From positions 1-32,271 of the IMG/VR virus record IMGVR_UViG_3300033145_001746: a stretch of DNA of 32,271 bases; one strand, 5' to 3'. The position numbers and the translations under genes are program-made. This stretch comes from a virus. Positions 9,665 to 32,271 of this stretch are shown one piece after another; the first letter of the stretch is position 1; each line of letters opens with the position of its first letter. Below the pieces are notes generated by a model that had not been told where the DNA came from, made no database searches, and saw nothing but the letters and a program-made list of their open reading frames with translations.

Positions 9665-12600
9665 TTACCATAGTTTTGTTAACTGATTTGCCAAATTAAC
9701 AGGGCTACTCACACCCTCTCCCAAATCTTCGGAGCTAACACCCACATTGAGAGCTGGGGCAGCTGTCTTGATTTGAGCTGGCTTGGATACGCGGGAAAGA
9801 GCGCGCTTGAAAGATTCGAAGCTCTTACTGTCAAAGTTCATAATCTCATCCACTTGCTTATCTAAAGTGGGACGATCATCTTGAATCATTCCCTTTTCCT
9901 GCATGTCAAGGGCAATATCATATGCTCTACGCATTCTTAGGCGCTGCTCGTCGACACTAGCCTGTGCTTTCTTCTTGCTATATTCTTGAGTCAGTTCAGT
10001 TCCGAACTTAGTGCTTTCGGAATCTCCCTCACCAAAGTAACTCTTCCAATACTTTGCGGCCTCTGGATCAACGGCGAGAGCCTGAAGCTTCGCTTCGTTA
10101 TCTAGATCACTTAAAGTTAAGGAACCAGACTTAAGCAGACCAGCGATCTGATTCATGGCTTCTCTAACTTTTGGAAGGTTCTGAACTTGCTTCATGATTT
10201 CATCATGCTGCTCAACGATAGTCTCGAAGTATGCTCCCTTATCGGATGGGCTAGTATCTAGTCTTTCAAGATCATGCCCGCCACTTGGGTGAAACTGTCC
10301 TGGCATATCAGAGTCTACAGTTACAGATGGCTCTAGTTTGAGCTGATACTTCGCTCCAACTTCAGCAGCAGTTCTTTCACGCCATGCTTTGCGCGCGGCA
10401 GCTTCAGCACCTAGGTCACCAACTGGTACAGCTGGGCTATCTGCTTCCTGATCATCGGCAGCTAACTCTTCAGAGTCATCAGCCTCAGGCTCTAGATCAT
10501 CTAGCATCTGAGCTAATTCAAGCTCTACTCCATCCTGTGCTTCTTCTTCTCCAGGTAGCATTTCTTCTAGCTCTACTTCTGGTCCTTCTTCCTCAACCTC
10601 TAGAAGAGCTGGCTCTTCCATGTCACCCATTTCTTCGCCACCCTTAAGCTCGGCGATCTCTGCTCTAAGCTCGGCAACTTCAGACTTAAGTTCCTCAAGA
10701 TCATCACCCTCTTCGGCAAACATCTCGTCACCCTCTTCTGCTTCACGAACTAACTCACGACGCTTGGTGGCACGTGCCTGGAGAAGATTTTCTAGAAGAA
10801 GCTCTGCCTTGCTCTTCTTGCTCTTCTTGCTATCTTTCTTACTATCTTTCTTACTGTCTTTCTTACTGTCTTTCTTACTATCCTTCTTACTATCTTTCTT
10901 GCTACCCTTCTTACTATCTTTCTTGCTACCCTTATTTTTCTTACTCTCTATAGCTTTCTCAAGAGCTGGAGGCAACTTACCCTTGCCCTTCTTTTCCTTT
11001 TTACTTTCCTTCTCATCACCATCACTCTTCTTGGCAGCACCGACGATAAGAGCAGCTTCCTTGCGAAGCTCGGCATTCTCGTTTAGAGCCTCAGTGGTTA
11101 GGCGAAGAAGCTCAGCTGTTACAACATCTCCGGCACCCTTACCGGCCTTAAAGCGACTTTCAAGAGACTCAGCTAGCATAGCTAGTTCGTCTGCACTCTC
11201 ATCTAGACCAGAGTATACTTCCTTTACGTCAGAGATAACTTCTGCAACAGCAAGCTGTTCAGCATCATCATCTGCGTCGTCATCATCATCTGCGTCGTCA
11301 TCTGCCTCGGCTCCACCAACATCGGGAAGTTCCGAACCTTCGGACTGACCAGAAAGTTCCTGGGTGGCATCTTCTAGGTCACCAAGATTTTGCTCAGCTT
11401 TCTGTAGACTATCAGACAAAGCTTCTAGAGCTGAGGCTACAGGATCTTTGTCTCCAACATCTGGTTTCTCTTCATCACCAGCTTCAGGAAGTTCTGGCAT
11501 CTCAGGCATGTCAGGCATGTCTCCACCGGCAGGTGCGGGTGGTGCAGCTGGAGGTGGTACTGGGGGCTCAGCGGTCTTTACGAGATCGCCCTTAAGAAGC
11601 CAAGCAACCTTATCAAAACCATCTTCTCTAATGGAACGTAGAACTTCACGTCCCCATTGCTTACTGGCAAGAACTTCCCAGTTCTGGGCTAGTTCATCTT
11701 CATAGATCTCTTTACCAGTAGCCTGGAGGATCTTGTCTGGACCAGCATAAATTTCCCAGCGAGAGTTGTCTTTATCTATAATAGTTCTATCTTCATTCTT
11801 GTAAGCAAGAACGAACTTAGCACGAAGCTGAGCGCGGAGAAGCTTTTTCTTGAGAGCTTCATCGGGTCCAGTACTTTCATAACCAGGATGCATTCCGTCA
11901 TTACCGGATTCCATTCCCTGACCTTCCATCTGCTTGTCGCCATCAGTCTTTAGTTTGTCATTCAATGGATCGACTGGATAGGTTTGTGGCTCATTTATGC
12001 CACCGCCACCCTGAAAATACGCCTCTTTCTTAGTTCCTCTACCAACCATCTTGATGAGGTCTCTGGCATGCTGGATGGTGTCGTCATCTACTTTCTGATA
12101 GGTGCCATCATTACTTAATGAAATCACGGTACCATCTGGCATTTTTGCGACGGTCTTTGGGCCAGACTTGGTCTGTACTTGTTTACTGTCTAGGGTCTCG
12201 CCCTTCTCCTCGGCTTCTTTCATGAGCGCGTGTCTACGCGCCTTCCTTTCATCAAGCTCTGCTCTAGAAAGCATTTTCTTTAACGCTTCCTCGGACTGGC
12301 CAAAACTATCATAGCCTGGGTGTAGACCATCGTTCCCAGGCTCCATGCCCTGTCCTTCCATTTGCTTATCTCCCTTGGTCTTTAGCTGATCATTCAATGG
12401 ATCGACTGGATAGGTTTGTGGATCGTTCAAACCACCTCCGCCCTGATGATAAGCGGACTTTTGAAACATTGCACGACGGGCGGCTGCCCTTTGACGAAGC
12501 TCTTTGTCAGACATTGATTGCTCCTCCTTGTTTGTTGTAGCTTCCTGGACGCCCGTTGCCATGTCACGAAGTGAGTGCTCCATGCCGTCCAGCTTTTTAT

Positions 12601-13840: not shown

Positions 13841-15425
13841 TTAATAATTCTCCCACTTTTTTAGTTATCCAATCTTTATTTTTCCAACTTTCATTATAAG
13901 CAATTCTTAATAATGTAATATTTTGTTTCTCACATTCTTGGTTTTTTATCATATCCATTTGCTGTGTATACTGTAATTTGTTGCCCTCAAAATGCTGTTT
14001 GCCATCAAATTCTATAGCAAAATCAAGACTTTTACAATATATATCTAACTCCATAGGGTAACCAGTATTAGGATTTCTTATTATTGTTCTATCATTAAAA
14101 GTCCAGTTATAATTATTATATTTATCTTTTATTGTACAAAATATAAAATTTTGCGGGTAAGATAAATATCCTTTATTGACATAGCCAAAATAATTAGCGG
14201 CTCGATTTTTGAACGCAAGCGGATCATACACTTTTCTTCTACATACGGTTGAACAAAACTTTTTACAACCAATCTTATTCTTTATGTTTTTGCCGCAAGA
14301 TTTACATTTAAGTTCGTAACGCCAAGATGGCTTACCTATCCTTGTTGTTCTACACTTATAACATATGTCACTTTGTGACAACGACATAATTTTTTTACAT
14401 TCAGCGCAATTTGAACATATATTTATATAATTTTTATTATTATTTGACTTAACAGCATACCCATTCGCTATAACGCCATCGTCTATATCTAATTTAAAAC
14501 TATTTCCACTTATTGTGCTAATCTTTTTTATGGAAAAAAGTATGTTGCCATCAAAATTTCTATACTTTCCTTTACCTTCTATATTCGTATTCTTGCTCAA
14601 AAACTTATGATATAGTTTGTCGCCACAACCACCATTTATAACAAATCTAGAATTTGAAAAACCTTCTGTTAAGCAATATGGTATCCCAAGTCTGGACAAG
14701 ATAAATGATATAGATTCGGTCATAAATTTTGAATTAGTGCTTCCTATAATGGTGTTAAACTTTGTGTGTACGCCTTTGTTAGAAAACCAACCCTTTAAAA
14801 ACTCCAGTTGCAGGTTCTTGTCCATCCATATAACATCTGACGACAATCTTTTCTCTTTACTTGAAACTCCTGGCACATACACCATAAAAAAGTCTACTAT
14901 ATTTTTACCAGAAACGCTTATTAACTTGTTATCTTTTCTAACAGAAGCGTTAGCAAAAGATTTTTCAATCATACGTTTTACTTCACCCTGGTGTTTCGAG
15001 AAAAAAGTAAGAGAACTGGGCCTATTATACTTATATAAAACTCTGCCGTTTGAAGCAAATAAACCTAAAAGCCAAGCCTGTTGTTTAGATACCAAAAAAT
15101 TATTTATCTGTGTTGTTTTCGGACTCATAATATAAAACCCTTTATTAACAACACTTTCTATAATACGACTGCTCTTCAAATCCTTATTTGGTCTTCTACA
15201 GTTGTTTTTGTCCAATGTTAAAAATTCAGTATTTTTGCCGCATGTGATGGGGCGACCATGACGAACTTCTATTTTAACTAGTAGTTCTTGTTTCTTCATT
15301 TCAATGTTTCGCGCCCTTACTATGTTGCCACTGGTACTTATAATTAAATCTTCTGTTGTTATATTTTCAATATTCTTAAAACTACCATCAAACAGTAGTA
15401 TTTTCGTTTCTACCCCAAGAATCAT
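13827..15425 (-). CDS. Degenerate intein with decayed LAGLIDADG and a C-terminal Vsr-like nuclease
   Basis: 532 residues. Residues 2-72 look like the N-terminal half of an intein/Hint fold (GVETKILLFDG..., then GRPITCGKNTEFLTL). Residues 307-330 look like its C-terminal half (FKLDIDDGVIANGYAVKSNN). The first residue is Met, not Cys or Ser, and the block B His is absent, so splicing is unlikely. The LAGLIDADG-like segments LLGLFASNG (119-127) and FLKGWFSNKG (209-218) have lost their acids. Four Cys-pair knuckles follow (337-395). Then comes a PD-(D/E)xK/Vsr-like domain (455-510): MELDIYC, AIEFDGKQHF, a D-x-x-K region and LLRIAY. An in-frame TGA two codons upstream fixes the start. The end overlaps the protease-scaffold start by 14 bases and contains a GGGAG ribosome site for it. 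Probably a free-standing homing endonuclease that reuses a dead intein. Confidence 0.8.
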   Translation of the reverse strand: MILGVETKILLFDGSFKNIENITTEDLIISTSGNIVRARNIEMKKQELLVKIEVRHGRPITCGKNTEFLTLDKNNCRRPNKDLKSSRIIESVVNKGFYIMSPKTTQINNFLVSKQQAWLLGLFASNGRVLYKYNRPSSLTFFSKHQGEVKRMIEKSFANASVRKDNKLISVSGKNIVDFFMVYVPGVSSKEKRLSSDVIWMDKNLQLEFLKGWFSNKGVHTKFNTIIGSTNSKFMTESISFILSRLGIPYCLTEGFSNSRFVINGGCGDKLYHKFLSKNTNIEGKGKYRNFDGNILFSIKKISTISGNSFKLDIDDGVIANGYAVKSNNNKNYINICSNCAECKKIMSLSQSDICYKCRTTRIGKPSWRYELKCKSCGKNIKNKIGCKKFCSTVCRRKVYDPLAFKNRAANYFGYVNKGYLSYPQNFIFCTIKDKYNNYNWTFNDRTIIRNPNTGYPMELDIYCKSLDFAIEFDGKQHFEGNKLQYTQQMDMIKNQECEKQNITLLRIAYNESWKNKDWITKKVGELLNGNS

Positions 15426-16286: not shown

Positions 16287-16562
16287 CTAGTTAGGTTCAC
16301 CAGGATCATGGAAAAAGGGATTAACACCTACGCCACCGATTGGCTCCTCTGGCTTTACATCTCCCCGTAATCCAACGATATTTGAAGCAACAAAAGCATC
16401 GCTGGCTGCATCTTCTTCGGATAGCTCATCCTCATCTAATGTATAACGATTTTCTATAAGTTTATATAAAATTTCGTTAATATCAGCGGCAGACCGTACA
16501 AATCCACGGCTGTTTAGTGTATCTCTGAGCTTTGCTATAGCTATTATGTGTTTATCAATCAT
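16287..16562 (-). CDS. Small protein with the shared helical hairpin motif
   Basis: 91 residues. Its ATG overlaps the stop of the 726-residue gene as ATGA, a classic coupled pair. Residues 4-37 (KHIIAIAKLRDTLNSRGFVRSAADINEILYKL, shown here as one motif region) match the hairpin seen in many neighbours, with Gly at the turn and Ala-x-x-I/h-x-x-I in the second helix. An acidic stretch and a Gly/Pro-rich tail (GGVGVNPFFHDPGEPN) follow. The family is not recognised. It probably binds the same partner as the other hairpin proteins. Confidence 0.78.
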   Translation of the reverse strand: MIDKHIIAIAKLRDTLNSRGFVRSAADINEILYKLIENRYTLDEDELSEEDAASDAFVASNIVGLRGDVKPEEPIGGVGVNPFFHDPGEPN

Positions 16563-18739
16563 ACGCCTGTGCTCCCTATTGGTAGAGGAATACTTAACAT
16601 TCCGGACGGTGCTACGCTGTTTATGGTATCAGCCCATGTAGTATACGCATGCTCACTTTGTTCCACATATGGATTTCCAAACGGCATGTCATTTGGAACA
16701 GGATTTATGTGTGGATCTAACATATTTTGTTCTTTAACATCTTTTTCAACATGTGGAGGCTTTTTCCAAACGGTTTCTCCCTTTTCAGGATTACCAAGAG
16801 GTTGATAGTTAACATGAGAAATATACATGTTTTTCTCAGCATTTTTAATGGCTTGCGCTTTGTTTTCATAAGTTTGTATGACTCGGCCCCAATAATCTAG
16901 CAAATAAAAGGGACCAATGGGATATTGCTCTTCTATATCCCTAATATATCCCCAAGACCTTTCCCAAATAATGGCTTCATCGCCCATTATTATTGACATT
17001 ACAGGATCGTCAGCAAACTCACTGTTTTCATCATAAACTATTCTAAAAGCCCATTTAGAGCCTTGCGCATTCTTTAAAGCCTGCTCTTCGTTATTATATT
17101 TTGCCAGCAGATTATGCTGGATGTCCATAACATAATATTTACCTTCTGGGTCCTGAGGATCCATCCCTTCATTAGTTATTGGGATATCCTGTGGTTTTTC
17201 TAAACCCTCTGCAATAACTTGATAATCTGGAATATTGTGAGGCATAAAGACATCCGGTTTGTCTTTGCAGGCATGTTCCACGGGATCATCATATTTTGTC
17301 CACATGTCCGGTTTCTTTGGCTTTTCTTCAACTTCTTCTTTTTCTACATCATGTGGTTTGGTGCGATCTTCAAATTCTATTGCTGTTACAGTAATCTTGG
17401 AATTTTCATATGGAGTCTGATTCTCCAATAATGTACGCATTTTAGCTGTGTTAATAGGAGGCTTGGCACAATTTTCTGAGAACCAATCCACTAGATCTAC
17501 AAAAATGTCTTGGAAACCATAAGACTTAGCTTCTCTATAAGCAGCTTCACATGGCCAACCAGTTTCGGTCCTATAGCGAGCCACAACGCCGCCTGTGCGG
17601 TCTTTACCAAACCAACAGTGGATATATGTGGGTTTTTCTCTTAAAAATGTAGAAACAGAATTTCCAAGAACCTTTCGTCCAAACTCATTAGACGCACCTG
17701 TCTCAAGATGCGCGGGGACGTGCTCCAAGCCCAGGTCATCACACATGCGCGTTATTTCTGGATTATTATGTAAAGAAACAATTCTCTGTATGTCAAGCCG
17801 ATCTCTGAGAGCCACCAACTGTTCAATGCCATCGATCATTCCGCCACGATAAAGCTGACCAGGTACCACAACTCCGAAGTTTCTAGGAAGCCCTAAGGTC
17901 TTGCAACCTTTAGCAAACGTAGCAAGGGTGATCTTATTGAGCTTTCCAGTAGGGTCTAAGTTGTTGAGATCTTGCCACTTTGCGAGCGCGACAACAAGAT
18001 TCGGGCCAAAGCATGATTTAGAGCCTGTCTTATGAACTATAGTTCCAAGAAGTTTAGATACTTTTCTATCTCTACTGATGACCTCATTAAATTCTGCCGC
18101 ATCTAGAACCTCAAGTTTAGCGGGCTTTAAATCGCCACGGGTCAATAGACAGACTCCACTCTTGACAAGATAATAATTTTTTCGGTTCATCGATTGCGCT
18201 ATAAACTTCAAATTGGGCTCACCAAATGAGACATTCGGAAGAAATTTCTCCCTAACCTCATCAAGATCAAGTACAGCTTTTAAAATAGCTTCTTCAAAGG
18301 ATGCTGTAGGCATATGTTGTTTGACGGCAGTTTGTGTTTCAGTTTCACCAAGAAACTCACCTTCACTTTGTGGCCCACCAATATGAGTCATTTCATGTAA
18401 AATTGTTTCCATGAGAGCAGATTCTATGGCAGATTGAAGCTGTATGGGGGTGGGTTGAGTCGCACCAAATTGTGCTTTAACTTGGTTCATGATTTGATCT
18501 TTATATATATGAACTTCGCGCGGATTCTTTCCTGGCCCCATTTCGACATGCCCAAGGTGACCAGCCCCACCAGAATGTACCACTATTTTCTCTATACCTT
18601 TTTTAAGCTCACCTATTTTACCAGTATTGGATAGAGCACGAAAAGCTTTCTGTACCGCCGGATCAAACGGTTCAACAACAACATTTACTGTTGGGGATTC
18701 TACTGGCGTAAGCTGGGCACGTTTACTTAAATAAAACAT
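16559..18739 (-). CDS. Multidomain protein: HExxH metallopeptidase-like, PG-binding-like, HCx5R phosphatase-like
   Basis: 726 residues, starting directly after the upstream TAA with a GGGAG ribosome site. The N-terminus MFYLSKRAQL copies the linker found inside the 2410-residue protein (LYLSKRAED). Residues 60-140 include TILHEMTHIGG (H115, E116, H119), a zincin motif, with acidic residues shortly after that could give a third ligand. Residues 243-276 resemble a peptidoglycan-binding type 1 repeat. Residues 285-420 look like a dual-specificity or tyrosine phosphatase: GQLYRGGMID, then VSLHNNPE, then HCWFGKDRTG with nucleophile C375 and R381. The C-terminal third holds two copies of a YxxxD...QAxKNA module (535-570, 611-645). 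A phosphatase in a phage head operon is unusual. Ejected-effector or wall-entry roles are inference. Confidence 0.85.
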   Translation of the reverse strand: MFYLSKRAQLTPVESPTVNVVVEPFDPAVQKAFRALSNTGKIGELKKGIEKIVVHSGGAGHLGHVEMGPGKNPREVHIYKDQIMNQVKAQFGATQPTPIQLQSAIESALMETILHEMTHIGGPQSEGEFLGETETQTAVKQHMPTASFEEAILKAVLDLDEVREKFLPNVSFGEPNLKFIAQSMNRKNYYLVKSGVCLLTRGDLKPAKLEVLDAAEFNEVISRDRKVSKLLGTIVHKTGSKSCFGPNLVVALAKWQDLNNLDPTGKLNKITLATFAKGCKTLGLPRNFGVVVPGQLYRGGMIDGIEQLVALRDRLDIQRIVSLHNNPEITRMCDDLGLEHVPAHLETGASNEFGRKVLGNSVSTFLREKPTYIHCWFGKDRTGGVVARYRTETGWPCEAAYREAKSYGFQDIFVDLVDWFSENCAKPPINTAKMRTLLENQTPYENSKITVTAIEFEDRTKPHDVEKEEVEEKPKKPDMWTKYDDPVEHACKDKPDVFMPHNIPDYQVIAEGLEKPQDIPITNEGMDPQDPEGKYYVMDIQHNLLAKYNNEEQALKNAQGSKWAFRIVYDENSEFADDPVMSIIMGDEAIIWERSWGYIRDIEEQYPIGPFYLLDYWGRVIQTYENKAQAIKNAEKNMYISHVNYQPLGNPEKGETVWKKPPHVEKDVKEQNMLDPHINPVPNDMPFGNPYVEQSEHAYTTWADTINSVAPSGMLSIPLPIGSTGV
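16805..17137 (-). repeat. Diverged duplicated module at the C-terminus of the 726-residue protein
   Basis: Residues 535-570 and 611-645 align as aromatic-x-[VL]-[ML]-D, then [AT]-Y-x-N-x-x-Q-A-[LI]-K-N-A, then a V-x-Y strand. The copies are diverged at DNA level, so this is an old repeat. Each looks like a short beta-beta-alpha unit. Confidence 0.65.
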
Positions 18740-20020: not shown

Positions 20021-20866
20021 TTATGTACTTCTATATTGAACCACACTGCCAATCCAATTTTTCCAACTCTCTATAGATAAATTATTTTTACCAATATTAC
20101 AAATTTTACAACAAGAAACACAATTGTTTGGTAAGTACCCGAAATTATTATGAACTCTATCTACACCAATTATATTTTTAGTAATAGAGCCACAATATTG
20201 ACAGGGCATATGTAAAAAACTCTTAAATTGATCTAACGTAAGTTTAAATTGTTTATTACGTCTTTTAGCACTTCTACGATAAAAGCCGTATTGCCCTTTA
20301 ACAGAATAAAATTTTATTTTTCTCTGTATTATTCTAGTTGAATTAGACTTGTTATAAAGCACCATCTGTGTTAGATAATTCTTCCATTCGTCTAGTGAGA
20401 GTGCGCGCTTTGTTTTATTACATATATCACAACAAGAAACGCAATTATCAGCGGAATATCCTATAGTATTATGAATCCTATCAAGACCTCCAGCAAAGTC
20501 CCCGCAATAATGACATATTTTTTGAAAAGTGCCAAATTCTTCTAAAGTTAAATCAAATTCTAAGCCTCTTCTTTTAGCACTTGCTTTATAACAACTATAA
20601 GTATAATTTAATGTACCCTTTACTTGCTTATAATATTTCTGGCTATAATCCTTTCGTTGTGAGTTTATCTTTTCTTTATTGTTGTTATAATATGTTTTAT
20701 GCTTTAAAAGTACTTTTTCTTTGTTTTTCAGATAAATTTCATGTCTTTTCTCTTTAGACTGCCTTTTACATAATTTACACTGTGAACATAGTCCATCTAT
20801 AGTATATTTATCTTTCCAAAACTCTTCATCTAGTTTGTTTTCTTTACATTTATTACAATTTTTCAT
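20021..20866 (-). CDS. Free-standing endonuclease with two tandem HNH domains
   Basis: 281 residues. An N-terminal zinc ribbon (CNKC...CSQCKLC) and a Lys-rich helix precede two copies of one HNH-type zinc nuclease module. Copy 1 (91-167) has SAKRRGLEF, CHYCG, LDRIHNTIGY, NCVSCCDICN. Copy 2 (193-274) has SAKRRNKQF, CQYCG, VDRVHNNFGY, NCVSCCKICN. Each keeps the D-R-x-H-N and zinc cysteines, so both may be active. The gene overlaps the upstream 102-residue gene by 14 bases and stops 16 bases before the next start, so it looks inserted cleanly into a gene junction. Probable homing endonuclease. Confidence 0.88.
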   Translation of the reverse strand: MKNCNKCKENKLDEEFWKDKYTIDGLCSQCKLCKRQSKEKRHEIYLKNKEKVLLKHKTYYNNNKEKINSQRKDYSQKYYKQVKGTLNYTYSCYKASAKRRGLEFDLTLEEFGTFQKICHYCGDFAGGLDRIHNTIGYSADNCVSCCDICNKTKRALSLDEWKNYLTQMVLYNKSNSTRIIQRKIKFYSVKGQYGFYRRSAKRRNKQFKLTLDQFKSFLHMPCQYCGSITKNIIGVDRVHNNFGYLPNNCVSCCKICNIGKNNLSIESWKNWIGSVVQYRST

Positions 20867-21205: not shown

Positions 21206-24200
21206 TTAGTAGGACGCTCGATTTGATATAGAAAAAGAAGCACTTTTCAATATTTTATCTAATAATTCCGCTTTGTTTAGCCTTATTGAAGAAGTGGCTT
21301 TCTTACCTCTCTTCGCCTCGAATCTATCTATGAGGTCATCGACAATCATCTCCATCTCTTTTGGATCATCTCCATATTCCTTCACATCTCTAACGAACTC
21401 TTGTAAAAGAATACGATCTTCTTCTTGACCAACTTCAGCAGAAAATAAAGCGCCGAGCCTACCAAAGATATTTTTGCTTGTGTCACTCTTTCTTCTAAGT
21501 TCTTGGATTTTCGTGATTGGTTTCCACTTATATGCTCCAGGCATCATAAGAGCCTGAACAAGAACATAATCTCCTACGCTTAGTTCGGTATTTTCTTTGT
21601 CAAGAGTAGCTCTATAAAAATCGTGATCACTGATATCTCCTACAATATTATCTTTACTATTAGCTCTGGCATATTGTGTTAGCTTCTCATCTTTTCCAAG
21701 ATGTAGATTTCCTCGCAACTTTTCTTCTCCTGGTTTTCCGACAACCTGGCCGCTCTCATCCTTGCGAACCTGCCCTTGTAGCGACTTTGTTTGATCTTCT
21801 GAAAGCTGCCATACCCCAAGTATCCTTAGTATTCTCGGACGCAAGCTTGACTCTGGCGTACGTACAGGTCTCAATGGAGAATATATGTGTTCAAAATCCT
21901 GTAGATTCTCTTCTGCAAAATCTTCGCTCTCTGGGTCATCTGGCTCAGGAGCCATCGTTTTTGGTAAAGCTCCCGCCTTCATGGCAAGGCGCAACTCGCA
22001 TCCAAACCCAAACACACCCTCTTGTCCCTTCGAGCTTCTTGGCGGCAAAACATCTCCACCAATCTTAGCGATAAAGAAGGTTCCAGGACCATCACTTGGT
22101 ATACCATCAACTTTACGATCGGTTAAAATTTCTTCCATGCCAAAATGCTCGAAGCCATTCTTTTTAGAAAGCATACTATCTGTCCATGACTGAAGGATTG
22201 GGATATATATTTCATCCCTACGCTGTGCTTTGTTGGTCTTCAAAATAAAGTTGTCTTCCCCAACATCTTCCTGGCCATCTTGTACAAACTTACTTGCGAT
22301 GGAAGTTTCTGTAAGCCATGATACGAAAGAAAGAGGATCAAGTGTAGAGGTTTCCTCAACAGTACGATATAATTCTATCTCGCGTAGTTTGTTCCTAACA
22401 TTGCTACTCTTCAATATTCTTTCTCTCCCATAGCCTCTGTCGATTTGTTTATCTATCCACGCATGAAACTCTTCTTCTTTGCCATCTAGTTCTCTAGATA
22501 AAGATCTTTTACCTAAAACGGATAGATATGCGAAAAGAACTTTTGATAACCTAGAATCCATCTCTTCTTCTACACCTGCTGCCTGGTTCACAACTTCCAT
22601 CTCATCGGCTCCTCGTGGAGCCGCCTCTTCTATTTTTTCCCAGGTAATTCTGCGATAAGGTTCCCATAAAAACCCTCCGAGGCTTCTATGACCTTGATAT
22701 TTGGTGCTTCCAAGAGTAAACTTTATATCATCATGAGGACAAACAAACGGAACTGCTAGCATCCACGTGGGAGGTACATTGCCTGGAGTCACTTTTCTTC
22801 CTTCAGTTTCACCCTCAACGCTCTCCTCACCTGTCACTTCATATCTCCCCTTTCCAAACTTTAAGTTGTGAGGAGCCTCTATTCCATATTGTTTGTTTAT
22901 TTTTTCTGCGAGGTCAGCACCACCTGGCGCAGCCCAAATATCAGATTTCCAATCTATTGCGGTTAAAGGCACCTTGCGGCCAGGACATGTTACATTTGGA
23001 CACCATGCGTGCCAATATGGAACTGACATCTGTCCGGCCAAAATATTTTGTTTTTTTTCAATCTTAGATTTCTTACTCTCCAAGACCTCTATGGCAGATT
23101 TTGCCCCAGATATAGCCTCTAAGTATGTGGCTATCTTAGCCTGTATTTCGTTCTTCTCCTCATCGGTTTCAGCCACATCCAATCTCTGTTGAGCGATGCG
23201 AAATTTTTCTTCAACGCCCATGCTATCTTTACCACCTAAAAGCATTTTGCGTTTTTTGGAAACCTCTGCCTCAATAGTTGGAATTTCTATGTCACGCATT
23301 TCATCATATAACCGCTTACAAGTTGGACATTCCCAACGCATTGGTTTATCTGCCACCTTCTTCATGCTGTACATAACCATTTTACTATTCTTACGTTTTG
23401 AAAAACATACAGAACATGTAGGGTATCTTCTTTGTTTATATCCCTTAACTTCTGATATTTCTTTAGTCATTGCCCTATTTATAGACTTATAGATATATCC
23501 ACCAAGTGGCAGGGCTTTTTTAGGATCTTTTTCACTTTGCCTATATCCATATGAAAAATAATAGTTGGCATACTTCGTAACTAACTGATTAAGCATGCGT
23601 ATATATTTTCTGCCGCTAATCAGATCAGTTATGTCAACGCCATCAGCAATCATAGAAATGTCATCTTCATCAAACATTCCAAAAGGAGTTTTGCCGACAT
23701 TCTTAAATTTTTTAGTTCCAAGAGTAGCTCTACTACTATTATTATCAAACCAACTTTTACCGATACCTATGATAAGGCTTGGAAGTATCCAACTCTGTAA
23801 TAGTTGTGGCTCAGAGTGTAGAATATCCCAGGCCGCAGGGTCTTGAAATAACTTGGTTAAGCTTTTGCCATTTTTGAGGTTATCTGGAGAGAAAAGTTCC
23901 CTGGCCTCTGAAGACATCTTAGGTCTCCTTATTTCTTTAGGCCACTGATCCAAGGCATTTCCTTCTTCATCTGCGGGAGCTTTAAGTTTAACTCCAAAAA
24001 TAGTCTCAGGAGATTTATCCATGGTAGTTTCATAATCTTTTTCTTCATCTGTTTCTAAGGGAACCTCGTTTAATTCTTCGCCAAAATCCATAGGTTCTGA
24101 AAACATAGCAGCCAAATCTTCTGTTTTGGTAGCAATCATTTTTTCGAACTCTTCATCTGTTTCTAGAGACTCTATATCCAGCGGAATATCTTCAAGCTCT

Positions 24201-27200
24201 TCTTCCTCATCTGGAAGAATCAAATCTTTAAACCCTTTTGTTTTTTCTCGCTTGATTTTTGGAGCTTTAGGCTCGACTGGAATAGGTTCCATAGAAGGCT
24301 CCTCGAATTCTTTTTGTTTTATAAGAGCATCTTCTCGTTGTTTTTCTGGAGACAGATCTAGTTCAGGTACCTCTTCTTCTTCAATCTCGTCACCCTGCTC
24401 AACATCCTTTTGCTGCTGTCTTATAAGTTCTTCTAACTCCTCTTCATCTGTGAGATCAGCAACTTTCCATATATTATTAAGTAACGCATCGGCGTTTTTG
24501 AAATCGAGAAAACCTTTAGGGCGTTCAGGATTAGTGGTGCCATTCAAGAAGTTGGCCAGAACATGTGCTATATTTTCCGACTCATCAGGACTCATAGCTG
24601 TGAACAGTGAACCATCACGCTCTATAGGCATTCCTGTCCATACACCTTGTGCCCTTCGTATTTTGCCGACAATATCTGGCCAACTCGTAAGTTCTCTACC
24701 TCTTACAAGACCAGCCTCTACAGCAAGCAAGGGCCCATAACCAATCATAGCTACAGGCTTCTTTTGACGAATAAAAGACTTCAGAATTTTTTGAGCTTCC
24801 GTGTTTTTGGAGAACTCCACCATGTTTTGACCACCAGAAATAAACAAAGCATCATAATCCTTTGCCACAACGGTTGTTGGATCATTAGTTGCTGAAACGG
24901 CAAAACCATATTTTCCTACAAACACTTCGCGAGATACGCCATATTCTGAAACAACAGAATCATTAGGAGCCATTAGCATTAATACGCTCTTGGAAGACAA
25001 CTCTTTTATTCTCTCTTTATCTATCCTTGTCGCGTCTAACTGCTTATCAGTAACTATTCTAGCCTTGATTTTAGTTTTCTTTTCAAAAACGGCCTTTGCT
25101 AGTCTGTGATAACCATCAATGATTTCGCCCTTATAAATAAGAATAGGGTATTTCAAATCAACTTTTTTGATTTGATCGCGATCTTCAGAATACTTTTTAG
25201 GGCTTTCTAACACCGCTGACGGGCTGTGCTTTTTAGGGCTTTCATCTTTACCCCAAACTTCCTCGTCCATGTTCCATTCCAAAGTGTTGACTGGAATACT
25301 TTCTATTTTATTCTTGGAGGTGATCTCAATTAGCATATCTACAGAGTAAGACTTCTCATCATGGACATATGTTTGTCCAGCAGTTTTTTTGATGTCCCTT
25401 TTAGACAAAGCCATCTTATCGTCAACTGTATTATAAGCTACATAACTACCAGATGGCTCAACGCTTTGTAAAGGAGTTACCTGTATCAACGCATCTGGGA
25501 AAGGCTCCTCAATATCATGTGTATATATTTTACCAAAGCCGCCGCTGTTGAAGTTATTTTCCATAGTATCTTGCTCAGAACCAGACGATTTTTTAACATT
25601 TCCATGACTCTCGCCCAAAGATCCTGGGACTCTCATACTACCCGCATTATGTAAAGTGGAGATATCAGATCTCATACCACTGCCCTTTACGATACCAATT
25701 GTTACATTATCCCAATCTTTGTTGAGTTCAGTAAGTAGATCTTTTAGTTCTTCGCGCAGCTTATCTGTGGACATCTCGGAACTTAGTTTAAACTCAATAT
25801 GTAGACCACTACCACCACTCTCGAAGATAGTGCTAGTAGAATCGTATTTTTCTTTTATTTTTTCACTTAAAGCAGCAGCATATTTTTTCGCCTCAGAAAG
25901 AGAAAAGTCTCCATGTATGTCTAAATCAACAAAGCCCAAATTAGTTTCAGTGCCAAACACCTGATGAAAAGATAGAGTACGACGCTTAACCCAATAAAAA
26001 TAGTTATTTGAGTTCTCATCATTTTTAGGATCGTCATTGGTGATAACAATCTCTTTGCCATTATGACTGCGTTTTAGAACTTTTTCGTTGGTTCCTGTCC
26101 CTATATATACTAAAATCGGCTTATCTTTAATGCGAGACATTATCTTTTTTCGAATAGCAGGCTTTTCATAGTGAGATTTAATTTGGTCTCTGGTTAGTTT
26201 CTTATCCTTATCAATAAGAACTTCAGACATTTTCTCTTCGCCGCCCTCATCATCTGCAGCATTTAGAGTGTCTATTTGCTCAAAGTTTATCACCACAAAC
26301 CTTTTATCTGGGCCAAACTTCTCCGTCAAAGATTTTGCCACTCTCTCACCGTAGGCTTTTCCAATTCGGTTTATACTCATAGCATTCTTGGAAGTAATTT
26401 TCACTTCACAAATTAGTCCACCGGAATATGTCATACACCTAACTATTTCCTCTGGCTGTACGGGAACATCCTGTGCTCTGATGGTCATACTTCTTGCTCC
26501 AGACTTAACTCCCTCAGCATATTGTTCTGGAAAATAGAGAGTGCCAGGCTCAGCATATGATGCGCGTTTTGACACAGTAAAACTATTAGATGACTCAACT
26601 TCTGGAAGCTCACGTGTCATCCTTAAAGTCATATCCTGTCTCGGAGATCTTAGCTGTATATACCAATTTGACAGCATATAGTCTACAAACGGATTAGTTT
26701 CTGTGCCCTGCTCCTTAGCTTTCTTAAGTTCTTCGAAATTTGCCATAATATATGTCATGACATCTTCCACATATAATCTGGTAATATCCTCAGCTCTGAG
26801 ATCCGGATTACTGGATTTTTCTGCTAAAGTAGACCACACTCTCTCTCTAACAGTTTCATTCTCATTCATCAGTGCCTGTAAGTTGCTTATAAACTCATCT
26901 CTGGTCTTAATCAATAAATTAACATCTTCAGTGGACTCAGGCTGCGTGGGAATCTCTTCTTCAAACTCCATTTCATCCTCATCGTCTTCGGCTCTCTTAG
27001 ATAAGTACAAAGAAGAAACCTTTTTGTCGCTGAAGCCGCCCATGCCGGCGTTAGATGGCAGCCCAGACAGTAGCGAACGAGCAATTCGCTGTACATCAGG
27101 CGATACTTTAGGATCTCTCTGCATCCATCTCATCGCGCGCATGAATCTGCTGCTTTGAATATAATGAACATTGCCCCTACCAAACGGTCTTCTGTTTCTA

Positions 27201-28438
27201 AGGAAATTTCTAACGGCGCCGGCACCACTACCATTTGCTGTGAACGCTAGTTGATAAATACTGTATGCTCCAGGCGCAGTGGTATCATAACCATATCGTT
27301 TAACATCGGCTGTGACCATTCTCATTTTAGACATAAAATCTCTTACAGAAATACTATCCAACAATCCCTTTAAAACAGGATTTCTCTTTATATTGTAACT
27401 ATTAAATGTGCGTTGAAACTTGGCATACGCTACAGGATTTGCCTGTGCGACAAATAGTTTGGCCATAGCACTATTGGCTACGCCCCAAGTTATAAAGTTT
27501 TTAGTTATCTTATTAAGTTTATTTATAACAACACTATTAACATTAAGACCCATTTTGCTGAGCTTATTTAGATTTACAGCATAGCCGATAAGTTTACCAT
27601 TTTTTATTTTAACTATGCCAGGAGCATTAGTAGGATTATACCTTATGGTAACGCCCTCTTTTCTTCTTAACACAGACCTTGGGTTTTTCTTCATGTAGGC
27701 TCTGACAGCATCTTCGTTAACCGGCACACGCATCCACACATTTTTTATAGGCTTTTTAGCTTTCTTCCATGTAGAAGACATTTGCTTAAACTCTTGAGGA
27801 GAAATGCCAGATACCTTTTGAGACCTTGGGTCTCTTGAAAGATGGCTCATAAAGTAAGGGCCGTGAACCTGTGTCAACCCAAACGAATTGCCTGCGTCTC
27901 CTATAACATGACTTCTCCCGGCAGACTCCAAGCGTGATACTATATAGAATATAGCTGGAAAATTGATGCCAGCCAGATGAGGAAGATTTTTAAGCTCGGC
28001 CATTGGAAATAGCCGACCACTAGTAGCCTCTTCAAGAATCGCAAGGACATCGTCAGCATAAGTGGCTCGCTTCGACAAAAGAAAAGAAGCACTTTTTACT
28101 TTTTCAATTTCGTCTGTGTTTGTCGTGTGAAGCTCGGGAACATTAGTTTCGTCACTATCAACGTCAATATCTTCTTCCAGATATAAGATGTCTTCCAACT
28201 CCTGAACACGAGCTTGTGCGCCATCTAGCTTAGTTTCCATAGACTCTGAGAGTTCTTCTAAACCTTTTGCCCTAAACTCAGTGAGCTTTAATTTCATCAT
28301 CGGGATTCGATTCTTTAACTGTTCAAGTTCGCACTGCTCACACATACCATGAGTTTGGGTATCCTCAGAGATATCCTCACTTATTTCAGTAGATATTAAC
28401 TTTTTACACCAAGAGCAGTAGTGTTCTAGATTAGGCAT
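21206..28438 (-). CDS. Giant polyprotein-like multidomain protein (transglycosylase, ASCH, AEP/LigD-like, ParB-like, DJ-1-like, zinc)
   Basis: 2410 residues, GAGGA ribosome site. Order: zinc knuckle (8-36, CSWC and CEQC); lytic-transglycosylase-like domain (about 125-460; RLESAG with E171, then GDAGNSFGLTQ); ASCH-like domain (630-725; FPEQYAEGVKSGARSMTIR); primase-polymerase-like domain (806-950; D838/D840 in VDLD, SGGSGLH 874-880, R936); ParB-like domain (1030-1140; IIDGYHRLAKA); DJ-1/PfpI-like domain (1150-1298; MIGYGPLL, catalytic Cys replaced by Gly1233); acidic linkers (1330-1500); zinc sites (C1675, C1678, C1704, C1707; C1813, C1818, C1900) around a coiled coil; unassigned C-terminus. 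[F/L]-x-[LVI]-S-K-R recurs at 119-125, 478-483, 620-626, 1009-1014, and as SFSISNRASY at the extreme C-terminus. Domains are motif-based; ASCH and ParB are the least certain. Likely co-packaged or ejected, possibly cut at the linkers. Confidence 0.85.
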   Translation of the reverse strand: MPNLEHYCSWCKKLISTEISEDISEDTQTHGMCEQCELEQLKNRIPMMKLKLTEFRAKGLEELSESMETKLDGAQARVQELEDILYLEEDIDVDSDETNVPELHTTNTDEIEKVKSASFLLSKRATYADDVLAILEEATSGRLFPMAELKNLPHLAGINFPAIFYIVSRLESAGRSHVIGDAGNSFGLTQVHGPYFMSHLSRDPRSQKVSGISPQEFKQMSSTWKKAKKPIKNVWMRVPVNEDAVRAYMKKNPRSVLRRKEGVTIRYNPTNAPGIVKIKNGKLIGYAVNLNKLSKMGLNVNSVVINKLNKITKNFITWGVANSAMAKLFVAQANPVAYAKFQRTFNSYNIKRNPVLKGLLDSISVRDFMSKMRMVTADVKRYGYDTTAPGAYSIYQLAFTANGSGAGAVRNFLRNRRPFGRGNVHYIQSSRFMRAMRWMQRDPKVSPDVQRIARSLLSGLPSNAGMGGFSDKKVSSLYLSKRAEDDEDEMEFEEEIPTQPESTEDVNLLIKTRDEFISNLQALMNENETVRERVWSTLAEKSSNPDLRAEDITRLYVEDVMTYIMANFEELKKAKEQGTETNPFVDYMLSNWYIQLRSPRQDMTLRMTRELPEVESSNSFTVSKRASYAEPGTLYFPEQYAEGVKSGARSMTIRAQDVPVQPEEIVRCMTYSGGLICEVKITSKNAMSINRIGKAYGERVAKSLTEKFGPDKRFVVINFEQIDTLNAADDEGGEEKMSEVLIDKDKKLTRDQIKSHYEKPAIRKKIMSRIKDKPILVYIGTGTNEKVLKRSHNGKEIVITNDDPKNDENSNNYFYWVKRRTLSFHQVFGTETNLGFVDLDIHGDFSLSEAKKYAAALSEKIKEKYDSTSTIFESGGSGLHIEFKLSSEMSTDKLREELKDLLTELNKDWDNVTIGIVKGSGMRSDISTLHNAGSMRVPGSLGESHGNVKKSSGSEQDTMENNFNSGGFGKIYTHDIEEPFPDALIQVTPLQSVEPSGSYVAYNTVDDKMALSKRDIKKTAGQTYVHDEKSYSVDMLIEITSKNKIESIPVNTLEWNMDEEVWGKDESPKKHSPSAVLESPKKYSEDRDQIKKVDLKYPILIYKGEIIDGYHRLAKAVFEKKTKIKARIVTDKQLDATRIDKERIKELSSKSVLMLMAPNDSVVSEYGVSREVFVGKYGFAVSATNDPTTVVAKDYDALFISGGQNMVEFSKNTEAQKILKSFIRQKKPVAMIGYGPLLAVEAGLVRGRELTSWPDIVGKIRRAQGVWTGMPIERDGSLFTAMSPDESENIAHVLANFLNGTTNPERPKGFLDFKNADALLNNIWKVADLTDEEELEELIRQQQKDVEQGDEIEEEEVPELDLSPEKQREDALIKQKEFEEPSMEPIPVEPKAPKIKREKTKGFKDLILPDEEEELEDIPLDIESLETDEEFEKMIATKTEDLAAMFSEPMDFGEELNEVPLETDEEKDYETTMDKSPETIFGVKLKAPADEEGNALDQWPKEIRRPKMSSEARELFSPDNLKNGKSLTKLFQDPAAWDILHSEPQLLQSWILPSLIIGIGKSWFDNNSSRATLGTKKFKNVGKTPFGMFDEDDISMIADGVDITDLISGRKYIRMLNQLVTKYANYYFSYGYRQSEKDPKKALPLGGYIYKSINRAMTKEISEVKGYKQRRYPTCSVCFSKRKNSKMVMYSMKKVADKPMRWECPTCKRLYDEMRDIEIPTIEAEVSKKRKMLLGGKDSMGVEEKFRIAQQRLDVAETDEEKNEIQAKIATYLEAISGAKSAIEVLESKKSKIEKKQNILAGQMSVPYWHAWCPNVTCPGRKVPLTAIDWKSDIWAAPGGADLAEKINKQYGIEAPHNLKFGKGRYEVTGEESVEGETEGRKVTPGNVPPTWMLAVPFVCPHDDIKFTLGSTKYQGHRSLGGFLWEPYRRITWEKIEEAAPRGADEMEVVNQAAGVEEEMDSRLSKVLFAYLSVLGKRSLSRELDGKEEEFHAWIDKQIDRGYGRERILKSSNVRNKLREIELYRTVEETSTLDPLSFVSWLTETSIASKFVQDGQEDVGEDNFILKTNKAQRRDEIYIPILQSWTDSMLSKKNGFEHFGMEEILTDRKVDGIPSDGPGTFFIAKIGGDVLPPRSSKGQEGVFGFGCELRLAMKAGALPKTMAPEPDDPESEDFAEENLQDFEHIYSPLRPVRTPESSLRPRILRILGVWQLSEDQTKSLQGQVRKDESGQVVGKPGEEKLRGNLHLGKDEKLTQYARANSKDNIVGDISDHDFYRATLDKENTELSVGDYVLVQALMMPGAYKWKPITKIQELRRKSDTSKNIFGRLGALFSAEVGQEEDRILLQEFVRDVKEYGDDPKEMEMIVDDLIDRFEAKRGKKATSSIRLNKAELLDKILKSASFSISNRASY

Positions 28439-28445
28439 TATATCC

Positions 28446-29822
28446 TCATGAAAGTTTAGTAAGCTCTAAAATTCTATTTCTGCGAGCTGTTCTTGGGGAT
28501 TGTTCCCCTTCTTGCTTCATAGCAACTAGACGATCTTTCCAATCTTTTGGCATAGGTATGTTGTTTTTCCCAGTTTTGCCTTGCATGCGATCCAAGAACT
28601 CAACTTTTTCTGAATCTTCTTCAACCACATCCTCAGCCCTTATACTGCTCTGTAGAATCTGAGTATAAGGTATGTAACCCTTAGCTACAGTACGAACATA
28701 TCTTGACCTGGGATTCTCACTTTTCCTTACAACCCATACCCTTTCTCTAGTCGGTTTCCTTTTCTCGGGGGCTTCCTCTTCTTCTGGTACTGGTTCAGGA
28801 GTCTCAGGAACCTCTTCAGGCTCTTCAGGAACCTCTTCAGGCTCTTCGGGAGCCGTAATGGGCACAGGCTCTGGAACTGGTTCAGGAGCTATCTCAGGCT
28901 CAGCCTTTGGAGTTGGCTCAGGACTAGGAGTACCGGGTAGTTCTGGCTCCTCTTCAAATCCAGAAGTTTCTTCTTCTTCTACAATTGGAGGAGCCTCTTC
29001 CTCTTCTTTAGGCACATCTTTAGATAAATATGCCCAATCTTTATCGGTCATAGTTATGTGCCAAGTATCATCGCCCATAATACTTTTTAGAGTCGAAAGC
29101 CTTCCAAGTTCTCCTTCATGCTCAATAAACTTAACTTTATCTTCATCTACCATTTCTATATGGACTCCGAGATAATCTTGGAAACCATCAATCTTTATCC
29201 TTATATCTCCGGTTCTACTATTCGCTTGTACATTCGTTACTCTTGGGTGAATTCTTCTCCATCCTTGTTTAGCACCAGGAACTCTAACATCTTTTTCGCC
29301 AGGTGCCGTACCAGGAGTAACGCCTGGAAGTTTATCAATTTGAGAAAGTTCTTCCCCTGACGCTCCGCCCTCTCCCTTATTTAAATTAAAGAATCCAATA
29401 AGCTTTGCATAGGTTTGGTCGTAACCAGACATAATGTTATCAATATCGGCAAGGCCCAAAGATTGTGCCTGATAGCGCCAATCTACCAGCTCATAAACTT
29501 TAAGGCGTTGTTTTACTTGCTTATATTTTTCATTGATGTCACTAATTTCTTCATCCATTGCTTCTTGAGCTTCTTTAGCTTTATCGTGAAGCTCCCTATA
29601 CACGGAGAAGAAAATTCTCTTAGATTTGCCTTTAAGACGCTTTAGAATGTTTGACCAAAACCCTGCCTGTTTTATAATATCGCCATCAGCCGCGTTGGCC
29701 TTGTCGATAAATGTATCCAAGAGCGCAGCCGTCTCATACTCTCCTGCCCTATCAAATAGGTCAGCAAGCATAACAGCCTCCTTGATGGATGGCACGCCCA
29801 GATTTTTTTCGTCGTAGCTCAT
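28446..29822 (-). CDS. Hypothetical protein with helical hairpin and Pro/Glu-rich spacer
   Basis: 458 residues. Residues 11-43 hold a helical hairpin (SIKEAVMLADLFDRAGEYE, then LLDTFIDK), followed by DIIKQAGFW, a K-x-A step. A helical region (55-145) follows, then a probably globular domain (165-270; RIHPRVTNVQANSRTGDIRI begins it) and a long Glu/Pro spacer (about 272-355). It ends in a basic segment of about 100 residues (RERVWVVRKSENPRSRY). The spacer could act as an extended arm. The family is not recognised. It sits between portal and the giant polyprotein-like gene, where T4-like phages keep small head-core proteins. Confidence 0.82.
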   Translation of the reverse strand: MSYDEKNLGVPSIKEAVMLADLFDRAGEYETAALLDTFIDKANAADGDIIKQAGFWSNILKRLKGKSKRIFFSVYRELHDKAKEAQEAMDEEISDINEKYKQVKQRLKVYELVDWRYQAQSLGLADIDNIMSGYDQTYAKLIGFFNLNKGEGGASGEELSQIDKLPGVTPGTAPGEKDVRVPGAKQGWRRIHPRVTNVQANSRTGDIRIKIDGFQDYLGVHIEMVDEDKVKFIEHEGELGRLSTLKSIMGDDTWHITMTDKDWAYLSKDVPKEEEEAPPIVEEEETSGFEEEPELPGTPSPEPTPKAEPEIAPEPVPEPVPITAPEEPEEVPEEPEEVPETPEPVPEEEEAPEKRKPTRERVWVVRKSENPRSRYVRTVAKGYIPYTQILQSSIRAEDVVEEDSEKVEFLDRMQGKTGKNNIPMPKDWKDRLVAMKQEGEQSPRTARRNRILELTKLS

Positions 29823-30074: not shown

Positions 30075-32271
30075 CTATATTCCTCCGCCACCGGCACCAG
30101 GAAGACCGCCTGCGCCTCCAGGTGTACCCGGCCCCAATCCTGGGGTCATGCCGCCTGGACCTGCTCCAGCACCGCCTATTCCCATCTCGGCGCCGGGCGG
30201 TGGAGCTAGCTCTGGCAAACCACCCATTTCACCACCCATTTCACCACCTGGTGGCATTCCTGCTTCGGCTCCAGTTTCTGGAGGAGGAGCAGCCTCTCTT
30301 TCCTCAGAGTCAACAGGTTCCATAACAGGCTTTTCAGGGTCTAGAGAACGAAGTTCGGTTAAAGTCATAACTCCAAGAGCCATCTCTTCTCTTCTTCTAA
30401 TCGCCTCATCAATCGACTCTTGGCGCATTTTAACCTTCTCATCTTCATAATTAAGGCCCATGCTTCTATAAAGAGTTTGTACCGACGCTTGTTTGGCACT
30501 AACCATTCCAGTTATATTACCAATGTAATCCTGTAGATCATATAGGTTCATTTGGTTCCACTCTACTTCAGGAACAATTAATCTCTTCTCTTTATTCCTA
30601 TACTCATAAAATCCTTGAATCTCGCTGATTGGCGCAAAAATCTTGTTGACCAACCACTGTTCCATCATGGTACGAAAATTGAAATATCTTTGTCTAAGAA
30701 CCTCTAACCCAATGGAGGCAGAAGCATAAACTGCGCTCTCAGTATCTACAACAGCTGGTGGAACCATTAGTCCAGTATAAATATTCTTAATGATAAGTTC
30801 TAAGTCGCCAGCAATATCAAGTGTTTGTCCCTGGTTACCGATACGAGTGATGTCAACTCCAGCATGAGTAATGAGCTTGAAATCCTTATCGTACTGTGCC
30901 TCTTCAAAAATTTGACGGAAGAACTCTAAATCTTCCTGAGTAGCCCGATAGTCTCCATCGGTGTTTCCGCCAACTTTAATTACAGTAATTGGGTTAATCA
31001 TTGAATCGGCCTGGGCAAACTTGCTGTTTCCCTGGATGGTAATGAGACCATTATTTCTAGTAACAAAAAGTCCATTGGGTACTTCAAAACAAAAAACTCT
31101 TCCCTTATATGGGACTTTTTCAATATTTGCTCCAGTATACTTATTATTTATAGAATTACCATATATTACAGGCTCTCTCCCGTAATTAGAATCTGACCAG
31201 GTAATTAAATAGAACTCTTTTCCTTGACCATTATAATCTAACATTAAATGCGGGGCATATCCGCATTTAAACAAAATTTCTTGAACATCATTAGCCAACT
31301 GTTTCGAAATTGTATGATATCTATAAGATGTTGCTCCATTCTCATATTTACTATGAATGATACTGCCATCACCTTTTACTAACGCCTTAAGTAATATTTT
31401 AAGCAACCTAGGGGATAACTGTTTAACCCATTTTGGAACATGTTTGTTTCTAGACAATGAGCCAATTTCATCTTGAAAATGTTTAGTAAGATTTTTTCTA
31501 GACATTTTCCAGGTAGTTATTTTATTATCTTCCTTAGAAGAAAAACCATCTTTATTTATATGATCACATTTACTAACACAAACATTAAGTAATTCTCCAA
31601 TTTTATATATTGAGTCACGAAAATATTTATATTCATCTGAATCCACATTTTGACACATACTTATACTATATTGATAAGTCTTCTCATTATAATGAACACA
31701 TCCTTCCGAAATTATATATCCTATAAATTCTAGGTAATCTTCAATAGGAATTTTTTTATCGAATATCTTTACATTAGAAATTTCTTTTCCAACATAACTA
31801 TCTATAATTGCTCGGGACTTATAATAACATCCCATTTTAACATCTTCTGCCTTTATAAAGCCAAAATTATTATATCCCTTATGATGTACTTTTTTCTTGG
31901 CTAACCACATTCTGTGATTCGGTGTTACTAAAGTATCTATTTTTTTGCCACTAAAATGATATAAATCTCCATCATATTCGTAATCTGTACGATTAATATA
32001 ATTTTGAAATTCAAGTTCCTTAGTTTTAGGATTCATAGTTGCTATTTTATCATTTTCCGTAATATCATCATATAGTTTGAATCCGTCTTTTGTAAGAACT
32101 TCCGTAAATACTGGGAAGCACTCACGAATCTTGTCATATAGCATTAAGTCTTTAAAAACACTAACAATAACACTTGTTCCTCTAACATCATATGGACTAG
32201 AGAGTAACTTCAAGTGAGACACATTAAAGTTATCCAGAGGAATATCCTGGTTAGCCCTAACATGATAAACG
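30075..32271 (-). CDS. Portal protein containing an intein (5' end outside window)
   Basis: The frame is open to the right edge; the GTG at 32222 is only an internal codon. Window-derived residues read VYHVRANQDIPLDNFN, then SHLKLLSSPYDVRGTSV and FKDLMLYDKIRE. After the intein comes SKFAQADSMINPITVIKVGG, the typical T4-like portal core, with the later GLMVPPAVVD and QRYFNFRTMMEQW regions. Removing the intein rejoins KIRE to SKFA without a gap, as expected for a conserved portal block. The portal ring sits at the head vertex and passes DNA. The last 80 or so residues are a Gly/Pro/Met-rich tail, not usual in this family. The gene leads the head cluster, followed at three bases by a small helical gene. 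Confidence 0.9.
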   Translation of the reverse strand, partial: VYHVRANQDIPLDNFNVSHLKLLSSPYDVRGTSVIVSVFKDLMLYDKIRECFPVFTEVLTKDGFKLYDDITENDKIATMNPKTKELEFQNYINRTDYEYDGDLYHFSGKKIDTLVTPNHRMWLAKKKVHHKGYNNFGFIKAEDVKMGCYYKSRAIIDSYVGKEISNVKIFDKKIPIEDYLEFIGYIISEGCVHYNEKTYQYSISMCQNVDSDEYKYFRDSIYKIGELLNVCVSKCDHINKDGFSSKEDNKITTWKMSRKNLTKHFQDEIGSLSRNKHVPKWVKQLSPRLLKILLKALVKGDGSIIHSKYENGATSYRYHTISKQLANDVQEILFKCGYAPHLMLDYNGQGKEFYLITWSDSNYGREPVIYGNSINNKYTGANIEKVPYKGRVFCFEVPNGLFVTRNNGLITIQGNSKFAQADSMINPITVIKVGGNTDGDYRATQEDLEFFRQIFEEAQYDKDFKLITHAGVDITRIGNQGQTLDIAGDLELIIKNIYTGLMVPPAVVDTESAVYASASIGLEVLRQRYFNFRTMMEQWLVNKIFAPISEIQGFYEYRNKEKRLIVPEVEWNQMNLYDLQDYIGNITGMVSAKQASVQTLYRSMGLNYEDEKVKMRQESIDEAIRRREEMALGVMTLTELRSLDPEKPVMEPVDSEEREAAPPPETGAEAGMPPGGEMGGEMGGLPELAPPPGAEMGIGGAGAGPGGMTPGLGPGTPGGAGGLPGAGGGGI
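31026..32120 (-). mobile_element. LAGLIDADG intein in the portal gene (365 residues)
   Basis: The element starts at Cys (CFPVFTEVLTKDG, block A) after KIRE and ends at Asn in ITIQGN before Ser of SKFA. Block B is canonical (TPNH). Two LAGLIDADG motifs are present: FIGYIISEG (Glu in the acid place) and LLKALVKGDG (Asp). The C-terminal block (VFCFEVPNGLFVTRNNG) is normal except that the residue before the final Asn is Gly rather than His, as in several phage inteins. The terminal Cys, Asn and +1 Ser are intact, so protein splicing should work. The nuclease may be active. Confidence 0.9.

Follow-up and report, generated by a model that had tools for sequence, protein, structure and literature searches.

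Genomic context of the giant gene

The window analysed here spans positions 1–32,271 of a partial virus record of 98,856 bases. On its minus strand, one open frame, 2410 codons long and complete with its stop, runs from 28438 down to 21206; the plus strand across 21206–28438 is stop-rich. The initial annotation had described one uninterrupted frame at this place without giving a strand, and the frame is confirmed here. The encoded protein (P0001) has homologues and shares 52–59% identity with one of 2718 residues (L001) along nearly its full length, which shows that the frame is a real gene.

In transcription order, the terminase gene (35472–37319 of the record) lies upstream. It is followed by the portal gene (PHROG 16240), which occupies 30075–32271 of the window on the minus strand, reaches 35462 of the record and is interrupted by an intein. 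The interval between the portal and the giant protein holds a gene for a 458-residue protein (28446–29822, minus strand), found at the same position in relatives. Downstream of the giant gene are small genes, then a gene for a 726-residue head-region protein (16559–18739, minus strand), which starts with MFYLSKRA and contains a tyrosine/dual-specificity phosphatase domain, and then that of a prohead protease-scaffold protein of 1391 residues (9665–13840, minus strand). The latter matches the PHROG 18299 'head maturation protease' family at 1e-11, and its candidate catalytic residues are the His in CKDHQ and the Ser in VSMG. The giant gene is located between portal and head protease in every contig long enough to tell. 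Among named phages, relatives of the portal occur in Bacillus phage G (35% identity), Virus Rctr197k and Myrna-type mycobacteriophages.

Several mobile and repeated elements were also noticed. The portal intein is large, with the junctions KIRE/CFPVFTEVL...TIQGN/SKFAQ, and the portals of L006, L007, L018 and L019 are likewise enlarged by inteins or insertions. Free-standing homing endonuclease genes (HNH, LAGLIDADG and endonuclease VII-like) are dispersed in the head module of the window, at 5691–6776, 7439–8236, 13827–15425 and 20021–20866. Several proteins in this phage group contain copies of a short helical repeat (LADLFDxxGEYETAALLDxFI-like), at 28446–29822 of the window, at 43020–44150 and 95609–95839 of the record, and at 1406–4003 and 8197–9993 of L001. 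At 93633–97091 of the record, three small proteins share the start MKIR(N/T/A)GFVSNSSSSSF.

Modules of the giant protein

The protein begins with a zinc knuckle of the CxxC...CxxC type (residues 8–36; 28331–28417, minus strand, as for all modules below), which is kept in L001, L006 and L060. A transglycosylase-like domain follows at residues 156–470 (27029–27973). Its E171 and the motif GDAGNSFGLTQ, on which the annotation of a transglycosylase was based, are conserved: the motif is invariant in seven relatives and the pattern GD.G.SFG.TQ is kept across the family. The AlphaFold2 model of residues 156–470 has pLDDT values mostly of 75–94. On the other hand, we found no Pfam SLT match and no lysozyme fold among the Foldseek matches listed, so the motif stands while the transglycosylase assignment is putative. 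An SLT-like profile retrieved one weak match of 31% from the genome collection, in an unclassified MAG. After a middle segment that is helical by secondary structure (residues 500–612; 26603–26941), an ASCH-like domain occupies residues 635–720 (26279–26536). It lies below the Pfam cut-off in the window (0.04) but above it in the relative L018 (2.5e-6), and the fold search returned a viral ASCH protein with a probability of 1.00, in keeping with the initial assignment.

The next module, at residues 738–945 (25604–26227), is an AEP domain with FVDLDIHG, SGGSGLH and D925 (Pfam 7e-4). With a mean column identity of 77%, it is the most conserved part of the giant protein. A ParB/sulfiredoxin-like domain with IDGYHRLAKA is located at residues 1018–1135 (25034–25387). 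The ParB-like label is backed by PHROG 17560 (2e-16) and by tblastn matches of 26–32% identity to jumbo-phage proteins, some of them annotated as ParB; a Pfam ParB match was not obtained. The DJ-1/PfpI domain proposed earlier is clearly recognized at residues 1150–1300 (24539–24991; Pfam 1.1e-19), although its nucleophile Cys is replaced in the window (IGYGP, whereas L001 has ICHGP). This Cys is kept only in L001, L007 and L009 and lost in three of six copies, indicating that DJ-1 chemistry is not the conserved feature.

An acidic low-complexity linker in the sequence (residues 1327–1468; 24035–24460) leads into the C-terminal core (residues 1468–2379; 21302–24037), which is 32–56% identical to four relatives (alignment A4). 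Its Cys/His pairs, putative zinc sites, are invariant over five homologues and bear out the zinc sites that had been noted. The core has no solved relative in a PDB sequence search, and the PDB searches with A4, A5 and A6 gave chance or coiled-coil matches only. Its AlphaFold2 model (A4) has a mean pLDDT of 56 and is unusable for a fold search. A likeness of the core to sigma factors (YIYKSINRAM) was seen by eye only and was dropped. The AlphaFold2 model of residues 122–1014 is confident for the transglycosylase-like part only, and Foldseek returned no match below 0.001 for it; fold evidence is thus used here as supporting only. The annotation is upheld in that a head-region protein, encoded between the portal and prohead-protease genes, strings together unrelated enzyme domains.

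Relatives encode a LigD-type set

Scans of IMG/VR revealed that at least nine further phage contigs encode relatives, either of 1362–3474 residues or as fragments. The homologues measure 2718 (L001), 2851 (L006), 3178 (L007), 3474 (L009), 1362 (L018) and 2768 residues (L019); L008/L011, L010 and L060 carry fragments, and L061/L062 are more distant. All family members are metagenomic contigs, with no isolate, and among 50,697 named phages we found nothing beyond single-domain similarity. In L060, the giant frame stops before the core is complete and the 3'-phosphoesterase (PE) lies in the next frame, which may reflect either a genuine split of the gene or an error in sequencing.

Every relative that has its N-terminus starts with an ATP-dependent DNA ligase domain (LIG; PF01068, 1e-28 to 1e-33), and nearly all with a C-terminus contain a LigD 3'-phosphoesterase (1e-22 to 1e-28). 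For the latter, the NCBIfam model LigD_PE TIGR02777 scores 1.7e-42 in L018, above its cut-off. In the ligase, KxDG with the motif I lysine and EG[IV]VLK are invariant among the relatives; the best-matching bacterial ligase model differs between them, and the NHEJ-ligase model falls below its cut-off. In the PE domain, the residues corresponding to the catalytic His42, His48, Asp50, Arg52, His84 and Tyr88 of Pseudomonas aeruginosa LigD (PMC8656161) are all invariant.

The AEP domain is present in all relatives covering that region. Since it scores below the Pfam LigD_Prim-Pol cut-off, we compared profiles directly, using hhalign with six phage sequences and six bacterial LigD polymerase (POL) domains from plasmid-borne ligD genes. 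The two profiles align over 167 columns with an E-value of 4.7e-6, and the DxD and SGGxGLH motifs are in register; the controls gave 0.057 (reversed profile) and 0.35 (unrelated phage domain). The leading Foldseek matches of the AEP model are POL structures of Mycobacterium tuberculosis LigD, with weak E-values. An AEP profile found nothing in the genome collection. On the basis of profile alignment and modelled fold, the 'primase-polymerase' of the window, correctly noticed before, can be specified as a LigD-type polymerase.

With LIG, POL and PE in the relatives, the family encodes a shuffled LigD, and this domain content is well supported. In each of the records of five relatives, the giant protein contains the only PF01068 ligase and the only PE. 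The L018 version has no core at all, yet it contains LIG, POL and PE. No Ku (PF02735) was detected in the seven records searched, all possibly incomplete, and the PE profile had no match among the 50,697 named phages.

We also notice additional insertions in individual relatives. In L007, a LAGLIDADG intein sits within the PE active-site segment (17090–18200; P0013, residues ~2695–3070). The giant protein of L009 (8543–18967; P0014) has an additional post-ligase segment (PHROG 12854) that looks nucleotidyltransferase-like by eye; near its C-terminus, the protein also weakly matches the NTP_transf_5 nucleotidyltransferase family.

The window copy is a reduced form

In the record of the window (G000, partial), neither PF01068 nor PF13298 has a match, and traces of both domains were found at the corresponding places. 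Residues 98–119 (TNVPELHTTNTDEIEKVKSASF; 28082–28147, minus strand) align to the tail of the ligase domain of relatives (DATMHEFHVENIDEFKMAEKKASF in L001), with E102 and H104 invariant, as expected for the scar of a deleted ligase domain. At the other end, the protein terminates at KSASFSISNRASY, where L001 runs on from RSSFILSVREAKD into PE; the last residues (FSISNRASY, 2402–2410; 21209–21235, minus strand) form a stub of the C-terminal delimiter, beyond which relatives continue into the phosphoesterase. The ParB-like module, placed between POL and DJ-1 in the window, lies after PE in L006 and L009. The scar, the stub and the position of the ParB-like module indicate that modules have been gained, lost and moved.

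By these alignments, the window copy is a derived form: it has kept POL, while LIG and PE are deleted, the DJ-1 nucleophile is lost and the ParB-like module has been gained or moved. Its polymerase must consequently act alone or with host enzymes. The ligase and the phosphoesterase escaped the initial annotation because they are absent from the window copy. The LigD-type end-joining set is visible in the relatives only, so that the key content was beyond the reach of the window, and the interest attaches largely to the family rather than to this reduced copy.

A short motif delimits the modules

The sequence F-x-[LI]-S-K-R-A (also F-x-[LIV]-S-K-R-[A]) recurs in the stretches that separate modules and also heads other proteins of the head region. 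In the window protein, four copies are recognized on the minus strand: FLLSKRA (residues 119–125; 28064–28084), LYLSKRA (477–483; 26990–27010), FTVSKRA (620–626; 26561–26581) and MALSKRD (1009–1015; 25394–25414). Counted over four records, [LIV]SKR has 23 occurrences among the 36,345 residues of head modules, compared with 14 among the 181,009 remaining residues (Fisher p 7e-10); these counts come from homologous genomes, and the p-values overstate independence. The enrichment is significant alone in three of the four records, but not in G003 (p 0.23). All motif copies in giant proteins (23/23) fall outside recognized domains. The transglycosylase-like interval is under-covered in some proteins in this count; the coverage is thereby underestimated, and zero motifs inside any interval counts as conservative. 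Synonymous codons vary between motif copies, which points to selection on the peptide. The SKRA linkers of the initial annotation are therefore real, non-random and special sites between modules. The short L018 version has no strict SKR delimiter separating its domains.

In other, separate head-region proteins, the motif directly follows the start Met. Motif-bearing proteins of the head region carry a phosphatase in the window, L001 and L006, and a cupin in L009. One in L006 (22219–25272) starts with MFYLSKRA and has a topoisomerase IB (4e-29) and a 2H/2'-5' RNA ligase-like domain, then a second SKRA. One in L019 (18088–20088) starts with MSFLSKRA and combines a CCA-type tRNA nucleotidyltransferase with an HD domain, followed by SKRA motifs.

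Comparison with known systems

The initial annotation knew of no described system with this set, which was too strong. Iyer et al. (2017; PMC5512222) had already described polyvalent proteins of phages and conjugative elements, injected multi-enzyme chains whose genes lie close to those of the virion; their domains include AEP primase-polymerase, ParB-like, nucleotidyltransferase, 2H phosphoesterase and muralytic domains. Like them, the present family consists of very large chains with many disparate domains, encoded beside virion genes with a portal-terminase system and predicted to be injected. Domains of disparate activity are found here in one chain, with portal, terminase and head protease as neighbours; packaging and injection are predictions for most published members as well. 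The earlier observation was thus mostly right and its interpretation right in outline, for a class that was already known. The end-joining set and the repeated delimiter are new here. In a word search, the text of PMC5512222 has no mention of DNA ligase, LigD phosphoesterase or DJ-1, and the repeated F-x-[LI]-S-K-R-A delimiter is a feature of the present family. Processing of polyvalent proteins by a fused zincin metallopeptidase, common but not universal, has no counterpart in most members here: there is no HExxH in the window, L001 has a chance-like HEEPH, and HEIMH occurs only in the distant L061.

Bacterial LigD shares these three catalytic domains, with their active sites conserved, and the N-terminal region of the polymerase aligns too. 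In contrast to LigD, their order here is LIG...POL...PE, hundreds to thousands of residues apart with unrelated modules interleaved; no Ku was found, and the window copy retains POL alone of the three. Mycobacteriophages Omega and Corndog bring Ku and borrow the host LigD for their incoming genome. The likeness lies in end-joining functions of a phage for its own incoming genome, whereas here the phage would bring the LigD functions. A search of open-access journal papers returned no report of a virion DNA ligase or LigD polyprotein.

The ejected head proteins of SPN3US/phiKZ-type phages and T4 offer a further comparison. A prohead protease processes head proteins of SPN3US, and many of these proteins pass into the infected cell (PMC10052503). 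The systems share head-module genes, a prohead protease and a proposed targeting or propeptide role of a short signal. They differ in that the portal and terminase here are of Bacillus phage G and Myrna type, and in that the motif here ends in K-R-A, versus Glu-containing motifs, with several signals per chain; the known SPN3US protease cuts a motif different from SKRA.

A proposed packaged polyprotein and other explanations

We favour, with moderate confidence, the explanation that this is a virion polyvalent polyprotein of large tailed phages, whose SKRA-marked modules are packed and injected, and that the family delivers a LigD-type end-joining set. The giant polyprotein would be produced together with the head proteins. 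F-x-[LI]-S-K-R-A ahead of each module would most likely serve as a prohead-targeting signal and/or a cut site of the prohead protease, the candidate cutter being the phage's own enzyme, encoded ~8 kb further along. Carried in the head, the modules would pass into the host together with the DNA; there, the LigD-type POL would fill, PE would clean 3' ends and LIG would seal. On the incoming genome they may act at ends, nicks or gaps, in its circularisation or in the repair of damage by host nucleases. As Ku is absent from the records, joining would be Ku-free or use the Ku of the host. Packaging is suggested by gene position and by the precedent of known systems, and cleavage or targeting at SKRA by the motif distribution and the neighbouring protease; injection and action on DNA ends are likewise predictions. 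More tentatively, the proteins may constitute a particle-delivered end-joining kit, in which signal-tagged LIG, POL and PE are packed, freed by the protease, injected and join ends without a phage Ku, while units of signal and module are exchanged.

The motif itself is open to two other readings. It might be a packaging (capsid-targeting) signal only, the polyprotein being ejected whole like the virion RNA polymerase of N4, which is packaged unprocessed (PMC5512222). Cutting at the extreme N-terminus of the other head-region proteins would indeed remove few residues; however, the placement of several internal copies precisely where modules meet suggests release, and a prohead protease gene is present, so that we regard signalling alone as possible but doubtful. 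Alternatively, SKRA might be neutral remains of domain shuffling, spread by recombination at short similar linkers, in a cytoplasmic scaffold for replication or repair that is encoded in the head region and never packaged. DNA repair typically involves functions such as those of ligase, polymerase and PE, and with no other PF01068 ligase in these phages, the joining of Okazaki fragments is conceivable. Yet the differing codons imply that the motif is kept as protein, not copied as DNA, and it also heads separate head-region proteins. The constant place of the gene, next to the portal and preceding the protease in contigs of unrelated length, likewise speaks against a scaffold, as does the peptidoglycan-type domain, senseless in the cytoplasm if the domain call is right. 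We consider such a scaffold unlikely.

The neighbouring terminase and portal, together with the large conserved core and its putative zinc sites, would also suit a structural or tail protein or a genome-packaging machine, such as a portal-vertex or core protein, whose enzymes act during packaging or assembly, for example in the repair of nicks in concatemers. Phage T4 requires unnicked DNA for packaging. But L018 has LIG, POL and PE without the core, packaging offers no role for the DJ-1, ASCH, ParB and nucleotidyltransferase modules, and the motif-headed CCA-transferase and phosphatase fit host take-over better. Such a machine therefore seems improbable.

If the packaged, injected polyprotein is the true explanation, some phages carry enzymes for mending and joining ends along with their genome, ahead of gene expression, a task that has until now been proposed chiefly for host NHEJ with phage Ku. 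Gene callers and domain surveys would miss these modules, hidden as they are in one 'hypothetical' giant protein. The delimiter would also point to a simple and reusable signal for loading enzymes into the phage head, and it could define the cargo in many uncultured large phages.
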